Source: Thalassolituus maritimus (GTDB lineage Bacteria; Pseudomonadota; Gammaproteobacteria; Pseudomonadales; Oceanobacteraceae). From it: DNA of 64,000 nucleotides. Of the stretch, positions 55,958 through 63,403 are shown one piece after another. Made by a program: the position numbers and the translations under genes. Location: the NCBI RefSeq assembly GCF_900156675.1, contig NZ_FTOH01000005.1, positions 62,001 to 126,000 on the forward strand, given 5' to 3'. Every line of letters begins with the position of its first letter. Within the stretch, counting starts at the first letter, position 1. A model generated the notes under the pieces. That model was not told the DNA's origin. It did no database searches and was given only the letters and a program-made list of their open reading frames with translations.

Positions 55958-56461
55958 ATGAAAAAGTACCTGATCGCTACCGCCATTTCTGCCGCAACTA
56001 TTACGACCGTTTCTGCGGAGGAAAATAATCTGCGCAATGCGCTTTATCTCGGCGGTGCCGTTAATCACAACGTCATTGATTCACCTTTCGGCGGTGATGA
56101 ATTAGATGCCAATGGCTACTCGCTGTTTGGTGGGTATAAGTTCGACAATTCGGTTGCCGACCTGATGACAGCAGTTGAGTTCGGATACAGTGACACGGGC
56201 GATTTTTACAACAGCAATGGTAACGGTGACGAGGATATCAATGGTGTCTGGGTCGCTGCGGTTGCAGAAAAGTACCTGCCGGAAATTGACCCACGCTTAA
56301 GCGTTATTGGTCGCGGTGGCCTGGACCTGGGTGACGACGACGGTATCTTTCTCGGCGCGGGTGCCGGATTTAAAGTGAACGAACAGGTCGGCCTTCGTGC
56401 AGAATTTATTAATAAAGATGCGTCATCCGTTTATCAGGTTGGCGCCTTGTTTCATTTCTAA
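55958..56461 (+). CDS. Small outer-membrane beta-barrel protein
   Basis: This 167-residue protein has the signal peptide MKKYLIATAISAATITTVSA. The eight-strand-type barrel ends in VYQVGALFHF with the aromatic C-terminus typical of BAM substrates. The ATG has AGAGG upstream. The ORF extends upstream inside srkA and is shortened here. Related to YfaZ/OmpA-like small porins; function unclear. Confidence 0.7.
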   Translation: MKKYLIATAISAATITTVSAEENNLRNALYLGGAVNHNVIDSPFGGDELDANGYSLFGGYKFDNSVADLMTAVEFGYSDTGDFYNSNGNGDEDINGVWVAAVAEKYLPEIDPRLSVIGRGGLDLGDDDGIFLGAGAGFKVNEQVGLRAEFINKDASSVYQVGALFHF

Positions 56462-56601: not shown

Positions 56602-59600
56602 TTACAACGCGAAAAACACCCGATAATTAACGCTGAAGTAATCAACATCACTGGCTAACCGGTGAAACATCAACTCCACCCGTTCACGCTCAGTGACTTC
56701 ATAATCGGCGCCCAGGCCAAAACCAACGGTCAGCTCATCCGAGCTATCGACCTGAAGGCCTCGTTCTGAAGAAAGGTCAATGTCACTGCCCATCACCTCT
56801 GCCTGCAACCCCCACTGCCCGGTACGCAAGAATACCGGACGATACTGCAGCGCTGCTGACGTCGCCTGATAAGAGACACGGGCAGTATTTACCTGGGCAT
56901 CGCCCAAATCAAAATACGATACCGTCAGTGCAAATTCCCCGGTGAAATGAACCCCTGCTCCAATAGAAACACCGGCATCAATGGTATCGCTCTGGGTCGG
57001 TTCTATCTGTAGATCCGGATCAAAACGACTGAAGCCGACGCCACCATCAAGGCTGAGGTCCAGAGCACTGGCAGGTGCTACCCATGCCAGTGCAAAACCA
57101 CAGATCAGTGCGAGCTTACGAAACGTCCGTCGGGTTCGCTGTGTGAACGCGAGTACTGCCAGAATCAGAGCATAAAACGCCTGCCCCATTGCACCACCCT
57201 GCTTAACATCCGGGCCATCATTGATAGAAACATCTTCACTGTCTGGTACGCCGTCACCATCAGCGTCGAGATCCGGAGCCTGTGACGGCCCCTCATCTAC
57301 AACCAGCGCGATCAGGTCATCGATGTCATCCCGTATTCCATCGCCATCAGCGTCGACGTCCAGGTAATCAGCAATACCATCTGAATCGAGGTCGGCGAGT
57401 TCGCGGTCGTCCAGAACACCGTTATTGTTGCTATCCAGCCCTTGAATAACACCATTAATAAGCGCGTCGATACCGTCATCAATGCCATCACCATCGGCGT
57501 CCTCACCGGTGAAGAACTGATACTGGTTGTTCTCATCACGGTCCGGAATGCCGTCGCCGTCATCGTCTTCATCCAGATGGTTCGGAATACCGTCACCATC
57601 GAAGTCTTCAACTGAGCCAAAGAACCCGATCGCGTTATCAACCACATCCATCAGGCCATCAAGATCGACATCGGTATTACTATCGAGACGACCATCGTTG
57701 TCTGCATCCAGCGCTGCACGGATACCCGCCTTCACCAGATCAAAGGTAACGCCATCGCTCTTAAGCTGCAGGAAGTCTGGCGTGCCGTCAGCATCAGTAT
57801 CCACAAGGTCCTCGGCGACATCGATGATATCGACACCCTCATCCAACAGACCGTTTGCATCACTGTCACTTAACCCGGCTTCAACGAGATCAATTACACC
57901 GTCATTATCGGCATCAAGATCCAGTGAATTAATCAGGCCGTCGCCATCAGCGTCTGCTTTCACATCATAGGATGCGATTGGTCTCGCTACGGCAACTTCT
58001 ACTGTCCCTGCCTCGTCACCATCAATAAGCAGGTTAAGGGCTTCGATAAACTCTTCTTTGCTATCACGATCATCGCGAACACCGTCGAGATTTTCATCGA
58101 CTACGGCCTCAAGTGGCAGACCGATAAATATCGCGGCAGAACCGATGGACTTATCATCTCCGAATGGAGACACATCAAAGAAGTCCATAACGCCATCACG
58201 GTCGCTGTCACCGCTCAGAGCACACGCGGAGTCATCCTCCGATACTTCGCCCATCAGGGTGCCGTATTCGAGGTTATCGCGAATACCGTCGTTATCTGCA
58301 TCGAAGTCGCTGCGATCAGCCACACCGTCGCCATCCGTATCAAGCACACCTTCGAGGAGATTTGGCAGACCATCGCAGTCATCGTCCTGGCCTTCCATAA
58401 TGGTGGCAATCAGTGCTTCGATTTCTTCAGCTGTATCGACGTCTTCTGCATCCGCCTGATTTCGTACGGCGTAATTCAGAATCGGAAGGATACGTTCAAG
58501 TGCTTCTTCATCGATACTACCAATACCGACACTCAGATAATCATCAATATCGGCAGGCTGGCGTGAGCCCCCTACTTGATCAGTAATATTATCGAAAGCG
58601 TTTTCTTCAGCACTGATGACAACATCAGAAACAACTTCCAGATTTTCCGCGGTGCCGTCGTTATCGGTATAGCTAACGCGCAGCGTGATCTGATTGCCAA
58701 GATCTGACGCCTGAACCACATAGCTCTCTGTGATTGCCACTTCGTTACCTGCCGACAACCACTGGTATGTAATCTCACCATCAATGCCATTGTTGTCGTA
58801 CAGGCTCGGTGTCAGCGTCTGAGCTACTGCCACTTCGCCAGCAATATTCAGCTGACCCGGCGCATTCGCAATAACCGTCACGATCTGATCCGCTGCGTTA
58901 CCAAAGTCATCACTGGCCGTCAGGGTGACGGTATAGCTGCCATAATCCCCCGCCGCTGGCTCTGCGACCAGGAACAGAGGCGCCAGGATAATCGGCTCCG
59001 GCAGTGGTGACGGTACATCCGTAGCAGACACAGTCCCAGACGTACTTGCAGGTATCGGCATGCCCGGCCCATCAGGAATTCCAGGTTCCTCAAGACGAAT
59101 CCATGACGGTACTGCACTGTACGGCTTAAAAGTGACGGTAACGTCATCGCCCGCAGCATCGGAGGTCAGAACCGGTATTCCACCCACACTTCCGGTATTA
59201 ACAGTTAAGTGGTCGGAAGACTGGAACTCAGGTACAGAGTTAACGCTGTTCACCATGGCCTGAATTTCTTCAACGCTGTCGAGTTGGTCCGATGTCATTG
59301 ACTGAATAACCGCTTGATACTTAGCGTTATTTTCAGCGAGGGCATTGTCGATACCAGCAACGGCATTCAGGTCGTCGGAGGTGATGTCATTAGCAGAACC
59401 CGCAGCACTGGAAACTGCATAGATCTCAGCATCCAATACGGTCACGGTAAATACCTGATCGGCGTTATTACCAAAACCGTCCGAGACACGCACATTGATG
59501 ATATTCGCACCGACGTCCTCATCGAGCGGTGTCCCTGTTAAGGCGCCTGTCGATGACAGTGTCATCCATGAAGGCCAGCCGGTTCCCGGTTTAACTGAAT

Positions 59601-62600
59601 AGGTAAGCGCATCACCCGCAGTGTCCGTCGCAACCAGGTTGAAACTAAACGCTCCCCCTTCAATCGCCATCGCACTCGCGTCAGATGTAAATACCGGGAC
59701 AGAATTAACACTGTTAATCAGCGCCTGAATTTCAGTCACCGTATCCAGGTCTTCATACGAGCGCGCTGCAATCGCGGCCTGATATTTCACATCATTTGCC
59801 GCAATCGCATTGCTGATACCAGCGATCGCATTCAGTTCGGCCGCGGTAATAGTGTTGGTATTTCCAGCGGCTGATGCAACGGTATTAATCTGCGCATCAC
59901 GGACATCAATCACTAATGCCTGCTCAACGTTGTTACCGAAGCCATCACTGACAACCACTGTCAGGTTCAGCGTACCCACAACAGAGTCAGCAGGTGTACC
60001 AGTCAGAGTCCCTGAGTTGAATATAAGCCAACCCGGTACACCGCCCGGTATACTGAAAGTCAACGGGTCATTAGTGCTGTCAGTCGCGGTAAATGTCAGG
60101 CTGAACGACTCACCTTCAATCGCTACCGCACTTACCGGAGAAGTAAATTGCGGTACAGAGTTGACGCTGTTCACCATGGCCTGAATTTCAGCCACGCTGT
60201 CCAGATCGTTATAAGTAAGATCCGCAATCACACTCTGATATTTGCTGTTATTCGCAGCCACAGCATTACTGATACCTGCGATGGCATTCAGCATATCTGC
60301 GGTCACTGAATTAGTAGCACCCGCAGCGCTCGCTATTTCGTAAATTTCTGCATCCAGAACAGTCAGGGAAAATTCCTGCTCGACGGAATTACCAAAGGCA
60401 TCACTGACAACCGCAGTCAGATTCACAACACCGACAACAAAGTCTGGCGGCGTACCTGAAATAGTACCGGCGTTGAAAGTCAGCCAACCCGGCACTCCAT
60501 CTTTAATGGTGTAGCTAAGTGCATCACCGGCGCTGTCGGTGGCGGTAAAGGTGAAACTGAATGCCTGGTTTTCTATCGCCGTTGCAGAGGCGACGGTCGT
60601 GAATACAGGAACTGAATTAGCGCTGTCGACCAGAGCCTGAATTTCTTCAGGAGTGTCTACATCTGCAGAAGTCAGAGAGCCAAGCGCAGTGCGATATTTA
60701 CTGATATTCTCAGGTACTGCACCACTGACCCCATCGACGGCATTGAGCTGCACGTCTGTCACCCGATTATTAGCGTCGCCGGCGACATTCATAATCGCAG
60801 TCAGCTCCGCATCAGCAACACTCAGAGTCATCTGATGAATAATCCTGTTACCGAAACCGTCTGCAATTTTAATGTAGACTCTGAAAGGCTCAATTCTGGC
60901 CTGACCAGCAGGGTCAGGTGCAATGCCTTTCAGACCAGGATTCTCCTTCAGGCGTAAATAACGAATACGCCCGCTATTCTTATCAGTGATAATTAAATCA
61001 CCAGAAGCGTTCATCACCAGGCCTGCAGGATTACTGAACTTCGCTTTTAATCCATCGTCCGTGCCAGACGCGCGAGTCGCACCAGCAATGGTACTGACGG
61101 TACCATCAGTTGCTACTTTCCGAATAAGGTGGTTACTCGCATCAGCGACGTATAGCTCACCTGTATTGTGGTCAATTGCAACGTCCGTTGGAGAACGGAA
61201 TGTCCCGGGAATACCATCATCCGCACCACGAACTCCTTCGGTACCGGCATAGACACTGACGTCACCGGCGGCTGTCACCTTGTAGACAACTCGCATACTT
61301 TCACTGGCAACATAAATATTGCCGCTACTATCAACATCCAGTCCGTATGGGTCAGTAATATTGGAGAAGGTCTGCTCGATCACACCTGCAGTGTTAACTT
61401 TTAATACCTGGTCTGAATTCGATATGTATAAGTAACCATCATTGGCAAATACTATCCCTTTAGAATTAACGTTTGTTAGAAATTCAGTAACGGTATTCCC
61501 AGAGATTTTGAATACTTTTTTCAGTGAAACATCAGCAGCGTAGACATTTCCGTCATCATCCACGGCCACCGAATATATGTACTCAAAGTCTGTTGTAATG
61601 CTGGGGTTGAAGAAAGAGGAACCCGCCATGGTTGATATACTGCCATCTGTCGCTATTTTCGCGACAGCACCATTGAAGCCTGCACTGAAGTCGGTAACCG
61701 CTACGTATGTGTTACCCGCATTGTCCCTGGCAATACCGCGGACAGAAGCCAGCTCTGATGCATTAGCCGGGGCTTCTTCGTAAGCACCCGCCGCCGACAG
61801 GGTTTTGGTGTAACTTGAAAAATTTTCCACTGACAGCCAGGTCGGTGACCCCGTTTCAAGACTGAATGTGAGAGGATCGTTGTTTGCGTCGCTCGCTTTT
61901 AAAGCAATCGACAGGTCATCGCCTTCAATCACAGTTTCAGCAGCAGGGATATCAGGAACAGGGCTGGAGGCTACACTACTGTTAATATCGTCCACCATAG
62001 CCTGAACTTCAGCAGCTGTATCCAGATCCTGTCCGGTCCGGGCAGCAATCGCGTCACGATAATATTGCGTGTTCGCTTCCAGCGCACCAGACACACCGTC
62101 CACAGCATTTAATTGTGCTGCCGAAATCGTATTCGAGGTGTCACCTGCAGCATCAAGGATAACACCCAGCGCCGGAGGAAATACAATTAACTGATAATTC
62201 AAGGATTCGATAAAAAAGAAAATATCACTCGTATTTTCATCTGCGACATCGCTGGTAATTTTCAGCTCATCGATGTTGTCGAAACCTGTCAACGCCAGGG
62301 TTGTTGCACCAGTACCCTCTGTCCAGAGAGATGGCGCTGTTATTTCAGCTACCTGCTGACCGGAAGACAGGCCAGTCAGTTTGACGCCAGGAACAGGCAT
62401 CTGGAAAAGGTCAGTCAGAGTAATGGAAGAGAGATTAAATTTATCGCGTGTTACTGAAGGAGTAATACTGACCGACGTTGCAACGCGGGTGGGATCGTAA
62501 CCAACCTGAATGGCCGCTGGGCTCGTCACCCCCTTCATACTGGCACCTGTCGGTACTTCCACCGTCAGGTCATTAATAGTGACGGACGTGCCCAGGTCTT

Positions 62601-62715
62601 CATGGTTCCCCCAGGTCGCCGTCGAAAAATCTTCAGTGGCTGCAAACGCGGATAACGATAACGTCATCATCGCCAGCAACGCACTGCAAAACACAGAACG
62701 CAGAATTCTAAACAT
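56602..62715 (-). CDS. Giant surface protein: Ig-like/NHL/thrombospondin repeats plus internal sorting-like signal and barrel
   Basis: This is a 2037-residue exported protein with signal peptide at residues 1-25. An Ig-like domain is interrupted by an NHL beta-propeller (about 320-590). Four roughly 153-residue units follow, each with a helical motif (AG..N.(I/V)T...LNA(I/V).G) and an Ig/cadherin-like domain. Thrombospondin type-3 calcium repeats follow (about 1448-1838). Residues about 1840-1865 read GGAMGQAFYALILAVLAFTQRTRR, a GlyGly-CTERM-like signal. This is followed without a stop by a signal-peptide-like LALICGFALAWVAPASA and a 153-residue beta-barrel ending FFAL. This may be a gene fusion or a processed precursor. 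It is cotranscribed after the collar protein. Confidence 0.85.
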   Translation of the reverse strand: MFRILRSVFCSALLAMMTLSLSAFAATEDFSTATWGNHEDLGTSVTINDLTVEVPTGASMKGVTSPAAIQVGYDPTRVATSVSITPSVTRDKFNLSSITLTDLFQMPVPGVKLTGLSSGQQVAEITAPSLWTEGTGATTLALTGFDNIDELKITSDVADENTSDIFFFIESLNYQLIVFPPALGVILDAAGDTSNTISAAQLNAVDGVSGALEANTQYYRDAIAARTGQDLDTAAEVQAMVDDINSSVASSPVPDIPAAETVIEGDDLSIALKASDANNDPLTFSLETGSPTWLSVENFSSYTKTLSAAGAYEEAPANASELASVRGIARDNAGNTYVAVTDFSAGFNGAVAKIATDGSISTMAGSSFFNPSITTDFEYIYSVAVDDDGNVYAADVSLKKVFKISGNTVTEFLTNVNSKGIVFANDGYLYISNSDQVLKVNTAGVIEQTFSNITDPYGLDVDSSGNIYVASESMRVVYKVTAAGDVSVYAGTEGVRGADDGIPGTFRSPTDVAIDHNTGELYVADASNHLIRKVATDGTVSTIAGATRASGTDDGLKAKFSNPAGLVMNASGDLIITDKNSGRIRYLRLKENPGLKGIAPDPAGQARIEPFRVYIKIADGFGNRIIHQMTLSVADAELTAIMNVAGDANNRVTDVQLNAVDGVSGAVPENISKYRTALGSLTSADVDTPEEIQALVDSANSVPVFTTVASATAIENQAFSFTFTATDSAGDALSYTIKDGVPGWLTFNAGTISGTPPDFVVGVVNLTAVVSDAFGNSVEQEFSLTVLDAEIYEIASAAGATNSVTADMLNAIAGISNAVAANNSKYQSVIADLTYNDLDSVAEIQAMVNSVNSVPQFTSPVSAVAIEGESFSLTFTATDSTNDPLTFSIPGGVPGWLIFNSGTLTGTPADSVVGTLNLTVVVSDGFGNNVEQALVIDVRDAQINTVASAAGNTNTITAAELNAIAGISNAIAANDVKYQAAIAARSYEDLDTVTEIQALINSVNSVPVFTSDASAMAIEGGAFSFNLVATDTAGDALTYSVKPGTGWPSWMTLSSTGALTGTPLDEDVGANIINVRVSDGFGNNADQVFTVTVLDAEIYAVSSAAGSANDITSDDLNAVAGIDNALAENNAKYQAVIQSMTSDQLDSVEEIQAMVNSVNSVPEFQSSDHLTVNTGSVGGIPVLTSDAAGDDVTVTFKPYSAVPSWIRLEEPGIPDGPGMPIPASTSGTVSATDVPSPLPEPIILAPLFLVAEPAAGDYGSYTVTLTASDDFGNAADQIVTVIANAPGQLNIAGEVAVAQTLTPSLYDNNGIDGEITYQWLSAGNEVAITESYVVQASDLGNQITLRVSYTDNDGTAENLEVVSDVVISAEENAFDNITDQVGGSRQPADIDDYLSVGIGSIDEEALERILPILNYAVRNQADAEDVDTAEEIEALIATIMEGQDDDCDGLPNLLEGVLDTDGDGVADRSDFDADNDGIRDNLEYGTLMGEVSEDDSACALSGDSDRDGVMDFFDVSPFGDDKSIGSAAIFIGLPLEAVVDENLDGVRDDRDSKEEFIEALNLLIDGDEAGTVEVAVARPIASYDVKADADGDGLINSLDLDADNDGVIDLVEAGLSDSDANGLLDEGVDIIDVAEDLVDTDADGTPDFLQLKSDGVTFDLVKAGIRAALDADNDGRLDSNTDVDLDGLMDVVDNAIGFFGSVEDFDGDGIPNHLDEDDDGDGIPDRDENNQYQFFTGEDADGDGIDDGIDALINGVIQGLDSNNNGVLDDRELADLDSDGIADYLDVDADGDGIRDDIDDLIALVVDEGPSQAPDLDADGDGVPDSEDVSINDGPDVKQGGAMGQAFYALILAVLAFTQRTRRTFRKLALICGFALAWVAPASALDLSLDGGVGFSRFDPDLQIEPTQSDTIDAGVSIGAGVHFTGEFALTVSYFDLGDAQVNTARVSYQATSAALQYRPVFLRTGQWGLQAEVMGSDIDLSSERGLQVDSSDELTVGFGLGADYEVTERERVELMFHRLASDVDYFSVNYRVFFAL
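58880..60800 (-). repeat. Tandem 456-465 bp coding repeats
   Basis: Units of about 153, 152 and 155 residues, then a diverged longer one, share the pattern LNAxxGI...KYQ...DLD(T/S)VxEIQAxVNSVNSVP. At DNA level the segments near 59230-59263 and 60150-60184 are nearly identical. Two further copies lie near 59700 and 60610. The high DNA identity suggests recent duplication or conversion. Confidence 0.8.
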
Positions 62716-62746: not shown

Positions 62747-63403
62747 TCAAGAGCGTGAAGGGAAAACACCCTGAAGTGCGATACAGGCTTTCAATGCCAG
62801 TGTTGGCTGACGAATATCAACATTCGTCTGACCGGCAGACTGAGTATTCCCTGTTACGGAAACAGAAGACGAATGCAATGCAACGCTGTCAGCCGGCTCA
62901 GTAGGTTGTGGGCCGTAGGTAGCCGCTCGCTGACCGTTTGCCAGCATATTCCCCGACGGGGAAGCTACGTTATTTTCGAGAGACGCTGTGCTTCCGTTCG
63001 CGTTGAGCGTTGCTGTTACTCCATTACCCAAAGAGTGCGAGTGGGCAGGCACCTGGGTAGTGAACTCCTGCCCTACTTTCTGGCCCTGCCTGTAGTTACT
63101 CAGACCAGGTCCTTGTCCCGCATTGACTGCAACACGCCCGCGAAGGTCAGGCAAACCAAACGTGGTTATGCCATCACCACCGTAGGTGGTACCCAAAAGA
63201 GAGAAGAGTGCCTGATTCTGGTTAATCGCCAGCAACTGGCCGTCAGCACTGGCCCAACCACGCGGGCAGAAGTTACCAGCAAACCACATCACTTCACCAA
63301 GAAGAGGGTCTGCGGCTGCCTGAACATGGGTTGCAGAAACACCGCCGATCAGCGATGAGGTAAGGATAGAACTGCAAAGTAGTTTAGAGAATTGCTTTTT
63401 CAT
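62747..63403 (-). CDS. Secreted phage-tail-collar-domain protein
   Basis: This 218-residue protein has a signal peptide (about residues 1-30, HVQAAAD). The collar domain has LLGEVMWFAGNFCPRGWASADG, LFSLLGTTYGGDGITTFGLPDLRGR and the end IRQPTLALKACIALQGVFP, as in microcystin-dependent-protein-like sequences. A tail-collar domain with a bacterial signal peptide suggests a secreted, not virion, role. It lies 31 bases upstream of the giant protein gene on the same strand, so the two probably work together. Confidence 0.85.
   Translation of the reverse strand: MKKQFSKLLCSSILTSSLIGGVSATHVQAAADPLLGEVMWFAGNFCPRGWASADGQLLAINQNQALFSLLGTTYGGDGITTFGLPDLRGRVAVNAGQGPGLSNYRQGQKVGQEFTTQVPAHSHSLGNGVTATLNANGSTASLENNVASPSGNMLANGQRAATYGPQPTEPADSVALHSSSVSVTGNTQSAGQTNVDIRQPTLALKACIALQGVFPSRS

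Follow-up and report, generated by a model that had tools for sequence, protein, structure and literature searches.

Described systems for sorting and anchoring surface proteins

Sorting tails have so far been described as terminal, and the models used to annotate them are built on that position. In type V autotransporters and in intimin and invasin, a large adhesin and an outer-membrane barrel occupy one chain, and the passenger is kept on a barrel of 12 strands. The cytochrome b/c1 precursor of Bradyrhizobium contains an internal signal peptide that is cut by signal peptidase to yield a second exported protein.

The Vibrio cholerae protein VesB is cut by rhombosortase after Gly383 and then receives a glycerophosphoethanolamine-type modification; it is anchored at the surface via type II secretion (PMC6219818, PMC11389362). 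VesB requires a helix-breaking Pro within the helix of its tail, and GlpG is able to cut it when rhombosortase is absent (PMC11389362). The founding paper on GlyGly-CTERM tails proposed their extreme C-terminal position as part of recognition, and the words OmpA, fusion and internal are absent from its text (PMC3237569). The traA and traB genes of Myxococcus, which overlap by 4 bases, encode, respectively, a surface adhesin bearing a sorting tail and its barrel-OmpA partner (PMC3325183). TraA and TraB work as a 1:1 complex (PMC12045341).

One reading frame joins an adhesin to an outer-membrane barrel

The window, by which we mean the whole stretch of 64,000 nucleotides of Thalassolituus maritimus DNA analysed here, encodes a protein in which a sorting-type tail lies inside the chain. 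The frame is uninterrupted over 2037 codons from 62715 to 56602 on the minus strand. Its features are as follows (window coordinates).

56602..62715, minus strand: fused adhesin-barrel gene of 2037 codons, a single open reading frame; the closest homolog matches residues 1-2037
62641..62715, minus strand: first (N-terminal) signal peptide, residues 1-25, from sequence and hydropathy; predicted cut between ...SLSAFA and ATED by the -3/-1 rule
58099..62640, minus strand: ectodomain, residues 26-1539, with NHL propeller repeats and Ig-like repeats (Pfam He_PIG 127 bits, NHL 57 bits, Big_9 42 bits)
57208..58098, minus strand: Asp-rich calcium-type (thrombospondin type 3-like) repeats, residues 1540-1836, seen in the sequence; the TSP3 protein MtsC matched weakly over 1540-1758
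57127..57198, minus strand: internal sorting-type segment GGAMGQAFYALILAVLAFTQRTRR, residues 1840-1863 (Gly-Gly, helix, basic cluster); TIGR03501 accepts the aligned segments of relatives but not the window copy
57187..57189, minus strand: in-frame ATG (Met1843) within a GG-A-M-G motif, unconserved (Ile in the closest homolog) and an unlikely start
57064..57126, minus strand: second, internal signal peptide TFRKLALICGFALAWVAPASA, residues 1864-1884, with a predicted signal peptidase I site after Ala1884; corresponds to the N-terminal signal peptides of split homologs
56605..57063, minus strand: 8-stranded OmpA/Ail/NspA-type outer-membrane barrel, residues 1885-2037 (AlphaFold2, Foldseek; Pfam OMP_b-brl just under cut-off)

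AlphaFold2 predicted eight strands for the window barrel (pLDDT 90, pTM 0.83), and two helices followed by eight strands for the whole tail. The solved structures nearest to the tail model in Foldseek were OmpA (1bxw), Ail (3qra) and NspA (1p4t), and also OmpX. The window barrel scores 26.2 bits with the Pfam model OMP_b-brl (PF13505), which needs 28.7; the barrel of a fused relative (L049) passes both PF13505 and PF01389. In this relative and in another (L060), the barrel continues into a C-terminal OmpA peptidoglycan-binding domain (PF00691), reached in L049 through a TSP3-like linker. That domain is absent from the window copy, whose chain ends after the barrel. The initial annotation, made from the letters and their translated frames, had described a frame running on into a signal-peptide-like stretch and a 153-residue barrel with an aromatic end. 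The open frame and the predicted eight-stranded barrel bear this out except for the last detail, as the chain ends FFAL with a final Leu; Phe is the last residue in many relatives.

Immediately upstream of the fused gene, positions 62747-63403 (minus strand) encode a phage-tail-collar-domain protein with a signal peptide (PF07484, 98 bits). Genes with a collar domain likewise lie beside fused genes at L052 and L054, by Pfam, and at L038, L053 and L041, by sequence resemblance, which hints at a functional link with the fused gene. At L044, L046, L047 and L041 the fused gene is preceded, in the same order, by a DUF4915 protein (Pfam in L044) and a subtilase-like protein recognised by eye. A separate small OmpA-like barrel gene at 55958-56461 (plus strand; PF13505 40 bits, PF01389 31 bits) is convergent to the fused gene.

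A sorting-type tail and a second export signal lie back to back

The initial annotation had noticed a Gly-Gly, a hydrophobic helix and an RxRR cluster after the calcium repeats. All three are present: GG at residues 1840-1841, a hydrophobic stretch at about 1846-1857 and RTRR at 1860-1863. Its label of GlyGly-CTERM fits the tripartite layout of residues 1840-1863, with a Gly-rich motif (GGAMG), a hydrophobic helix (YALILAVLAF) and a basic cluster (RTRR), but neither the family model nor the position. The window tail gave no match to the curated NCBI model TIGR03501 (GlyGly-CTERM, cut-off 15.5 bits). Furthermore, the extreme C-terminal position, present in the split homologs, is absent in the window copy, where 174 residues follow the tail. 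Internal tails of relatives do exceed the cut-off (G000e 18.6, G028b 18.5, G248/G324 20.1 and G340 22.2 bits). The terminal tails of two split pairs (G000 and G141) gave no TIGR03501 score either, so the model misses some tails. The best reading is that the window tail may work like a GlyGly-CTERM tail; we do not file it as a member of the family because it has no TIGR03501 score, though internal tails of four relatives pass. The MYXO-CTERM model found no match in the window tail, and the best relative reached 19.6 bits, under the cut-off of 20. The sorting-type helix of the window protein contains no Pro, and the helices of the terminal Gly-Gly tails in the T. maritimus genome (proteins 1-5) likewise have none.

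The chain continues as RTRRTFRK-LALICGFALAWV-APASA, which combines a basic n-region, a hydrophobic core and small residues at -3 and -1, the features of a signal peptidase I substrate. Residues 1868-1884 are LALICGFALAWVAPASA, after which come 153 residues (1885-2037). The N-terminal location usual for such a signal is found in the split homologs, whereas in the window copy the signal is internal.

The closest homolog, from the metagenome-assembled genome of Oceanobacter sp. NORP38, is also fused and matches residues 1-2037 at 65% identity; its naming rests on one record, the sole relative from the full-protein scan of named genomes. Homologs with the same full architecture are thus present; the initial annotation had named such homologs, if unprocessed, as evidence against its proposal. 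A search with the tail found matches in 15 of 45 genomes of the family. When the junctions were read, all 27 proteins (26 relatives and the window) shared the doublet and the common layout of Gly motif, helix, basic residues, second helix, small-x-small motif and barrel. The T. maritimus genome has six fused copies (C7:118605, C7:246197, C13:367522, C13:485019, C16:97028 and C16:101212). At L060 (T. maritimus C16:94500-103500), two fused genes of the adhesin-barrel-OmpA form lie one behind the other, with about 190 bases between them.

A profile built from the tail (A1) was used for an order-wide search and revealed further fused genes across the order, plus one in another order (G633). The tails of fused relatives are mostly only 19-32% identical to the window tail. 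We scored their junctions automatically, a pass requiring a Gly motif, two hydrophobic segments with two or more Lys/Arg between them, and an [AVSTGIL]x[AGS] site. Order-wide, 50 of 55 fused proteins passed and two more did so by eye; the remainder are one masked sequence and two real exceptions (L117 and L136). Two hydrophobic segments around a basic cluster are thus found in 52 of 54 readable fused junctions, compared with passes for 19 of 10,800 control windows drawn at random from these proteins. Each of the 50 proteins that passed automatically has the [AVSTGIL]x[AGS] site after its second helix, and 45 of them have the strict form [AVS]xA. L117 and L136 have a single hydrophobic segment, the Gly motif merged with the small-x-small site, and no basic cluster.

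Across the junction, dN/dS is about 0.06-0.2 in seven unsaturated pairs of close relatives. Synonymous changes far outnumber amino-acid changes, so the junction is translated and selected as one reading frame. A '1 TGA' flag in one relative (L025), suspected of marking readthrough, proved to be the normal final stop. Judged from the homologs, the purifying selection and the six copies in the T. maritimus genome, the fusion is natural, which was one of the readings offered by the initial annotation.

The same boundary separates two genes in other lineages

The initial annotation had suggested a search for homologs split at the junction. They exist, and one pair lies in the T. maritimus genome itself. 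In the split homologs, the upstream gene terminates just behind the sorting tail, and at that point the downstream gene begins with a signal peptide of its own. The upstream protein of the T. maritimus pair (C14:75464) has 1310 amino acids and ends ...GNGSHSLWWLLWIPALVATRKRKQV. Its TGA overlaps the downstream ATG (ATGA), and the downstream gene encodes a signal peptide and a barrel. Other pairs overlap by 4 bases (G141 and G017, and probably G035, if its start is taken at the internal Met matching the T. maritimus pair) or by 1 base (G263 and G127). Gaps of 1-6 bases separate the genes in G203, G345 and G387, and wider gaps those in G354 and G403. A pair with a 1-base overlap was also found in another order (G507).

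Fused and split forms can be compared within one genus. The terminal tail and the N-terminal signal peptide of split G203 align with the two internal helices of fused G338. On a tree of the barrel only, G338 adjoins the split G387, G403 and G203 of the same genus. The fused or split label changes on this tree at least 7 times, all forced by well-supported branches; the 12 rows with a split label include one lone barrel gene (L125), and the number of changes may therefore be one lower. Either the fused or the split state may be ancestral on this tree. We rejected L125 (genome G022) as a split pair, as no long frame lies upstream of it. A further candidate for the family (G365) was read and looks like an ordinary barrel gene, as do many low-scoring profile matches of 200-400 amino acids.

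Rhombosortase and type II secretion genes

The initial annotation had also pointed to rhombosortase as a gene to look for. The T. maritimus genome encodes one, scoring 131 bits with TIGR03902 against a cut-off of 84 bits. The genome furthermore encodes the type II secretin GspD (526 bits). Rhombosortase exceeds the cut-off in 128 of the 392 genomes of the order sample. It is found in 34 of the 36 genomes with a strong tail match (at least 70 bits) and in 94 of the 356 others (p ~4e-16, an overstated significance, as related genomes are not independent). One of the two strong-match genomes below the cut-off scores 80.9 bits, and the other is 65% complete and holds a fragment only. In G391, a rhombosortase gene lies downstream of the fused gene on the same strand, within about 110 bases.

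Rhombosortase is missing from the draft genome of the closest homolog (G032). We rejected this as counter-evidence and count it neither way, because the draft also lacks the neighbouring signal peptidase gene lepB, which indicates an assembly gap. lepB is present in two other congeners (96% and 71% identity).

The main rhombosortase gene of T. maritimus (L065, contig C18) adjoins a gene whose product, an M6-type peptidase (PF05547), ends in a Gly-Gly tail; lepB is close by. On a contig of 8.3 kb (C22, L067), a 610-aa exported protein with a sorting-type tail is encoded beside a second rhombosortase-like gene (73 bits). The same contig carries an EF-G-like gene and two EF-Tu genes.

A probable precursor cut twice, and alternatives

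From the architecture and its fused and split forms, we infer that the protein is a polyprotein that undergoes two cuts, one by rhombosortase (or another rhomboid) and one by signal peptidase I, to give a surface adhesin and a barrel partner, and we put the probability of this at roughly 0.7. The N-terminal signal peptide would direct the protein to the Sec channel, bringing its adhesin portion into the periplasm. The internal Gly-Gly/hydrophobic/RTRR segment would halt in the inner membrane with its basic cluster in the cytoplasm, as a GlyGly-CTERM tail does, and the next hydrophobic stretch could act as a fresh signal peptide that re-opens translocation. Signal peptidase I would cut after APASA, and the freed barrel would assemble into the outer membrane. 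Rhombosortase, or another rhomboid, would cut near the Gly-Gly, and the adhesin would receive a lipid tag and reach the surface through type II secretion. Made one to one, the two products may act as a pair, with the barrel serving as partner or stalk base, like TraB for TraA. In some relatives this putative partner carries the peptidoglycan-binding OmpA domain.

Two cuts are likely in the fused form because the products of the split pairs are separate by construction, one ending in the sorting tail and the other starting with the signal peptide. An uncut chain would, furthermore, need neither the basic cluster nor the small-x-small site. The membrane crossings fit as well, since two helices around a basic loop would return the barrel to the periplasm. 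The predicted scheme is not universal, as L117 and L136 have a single hydrophobic segment. The basic cluster that would stop transfer is lost in these two as well, so the barrel should be able to reach the periplasm in every readable case.

The genes probably form a family of surface polyproteins characterised by a sorting tail with a second signal peptide directly behind it. An intramembrane protease and signal peptidase I would release a lipid-anchored adhesin and its dedicated barrel at a fixed 1:1 ratio, with lineages switching again and again between one gene and two.

The initial annotation had left open whether the chain is cut. Joined to a barrel, an adhesin would have a simple anchor, so the outer-membrane barrel might hold the adhesin stalk covalently, with no cut at the junction and the hydrophobic segments as relics. 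The two fused relatives with reduced junctions would suit such a chain. Relics should decay, yet nearly all readable junctions keep the segments and the basic loop despite the low identity of the tails, and the junction is under purifying selection. Two inner-membrane helices, moreover, could hardly stay joined to an outer-membrane barrel. We consider an uncut chain improbable. The cut precursor is favoured because the split homologs stop and restart exactly at the junction, and because both signals are kept over very divergent barrels.

It is also rather unlikely that signal peptidase I makes the only dedicated cut, with the first helix keeping the adhesin at the inner membrane or a general protease (GlpG, for example) releasing it. 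The failure of the window copy with the GlyGly-CTERM model, and the ability of GlpG to cut VesB without rhombosortase (PMC11389362), would be consistent with this. Against it stand the relatives whose internal tails pass TIGR03501, the enrichment for rhombosortase in genomes with strong tail matches, and the rhombosortase gene directly downstream of the fused gene in G391.

The barrel could instead be made separately by internal translation initiation, with no polyprotein. The initial annotation had reported no ATG, GTG or TTG near the second signal. This holds for residues 1844-1936, the next such codon being TTG 1937, but an ATG does occur at residue 1843 (nt 57189), 41 codons ahead of the predicted cleavage of the second signal. 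It is preceded by AGGGTGG, and the second gene of split relatives has its own start. Examined codon by codon, this explanation found no support and is very unlikely: Met1843 belongs to a GG-[AS]-M motif, and the closest homolog has Ile in its place; the window gene and G033a lack ATG, GTG and TTG from the middle of the first helix to the barrel; no start position is conserved; and the long frame is open in every fused relative. The sequencing or assembly error also raised by the initial annotation, in which one lost stop between two genes, real as two-gene versions are, could mimic a fusion, is excluded by the same fused frame in an independent assembly of the closest homolog, in five further T. 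maritimus copies and in many genera.

Significance and comparison with known systems

The arrangement is real and conserved, and it is apparently undescribed: the open-access literature that we searched (most subscription papers lie outside it) yielded no description of internal sorting tails or of such polyproteins. Very large proteins from more than one order within the class keep a sorting-type tail mid-chain, with another export signal behind it. The system allows direct testing of whether intramembrane sorting proteases accept internal substrates, and of whether the passage of a single chain across the inner membrane can halt and then resume. Many giant adhesins whose anchoring is uncertain are also linked in this way to a particular barrel partner; this suggests that TraAB-like pairs occur more widely than the myxobacterial example.

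Like type V autotransporters, intimin and invasin, the fused protein combines an adhesin and an outer-membrane barrel in one chain. Its barrel, however, is of the 8-stranded OmpA type rather than 12-stranded, and it comes after two hydrophobic helices and a cleavage motif. It shares with the cytochrome b/c1 precursor an internal signal peptide within a bacterial polyprotein. The precursor joins two respiratory proteins without a sorting tail, whereas an adhesin and a barrel are joined here via a tail and a signal.

The tail itself resembles the GlyGly-CTERM/rhombosortase system of Vibrio cholerae (VesB, RssP; TIGR03501/TIGR03902) in having a Gly-rich motif, a hydrophobic helix and an Arg/Lys cluster behind an exported ectodomain. 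The T. maritimus genome encodes rhombosortase and a type II secretin, and the split homologs end in such a tail. The differences are that the tail is internal here, ahead of a second signal peptide and a barrel in the same chain, and that the window copy misses the family model.

TraA-TraB appears to be the nearest functional parallel to the adhesin-barrel pair. In both, an adhesin with a sorting tail directly precedes a signal peptide and barrel, and several split pairs overlap by 1-4 bases. Some of the barrels here run into an OmpA domain, in L049 via a TSP3-like linker as in TraB. Unlike traA and traB, most copies examined form one frame, and the window copy has no OmpA domain; the likeness drawn here is one of architecture.
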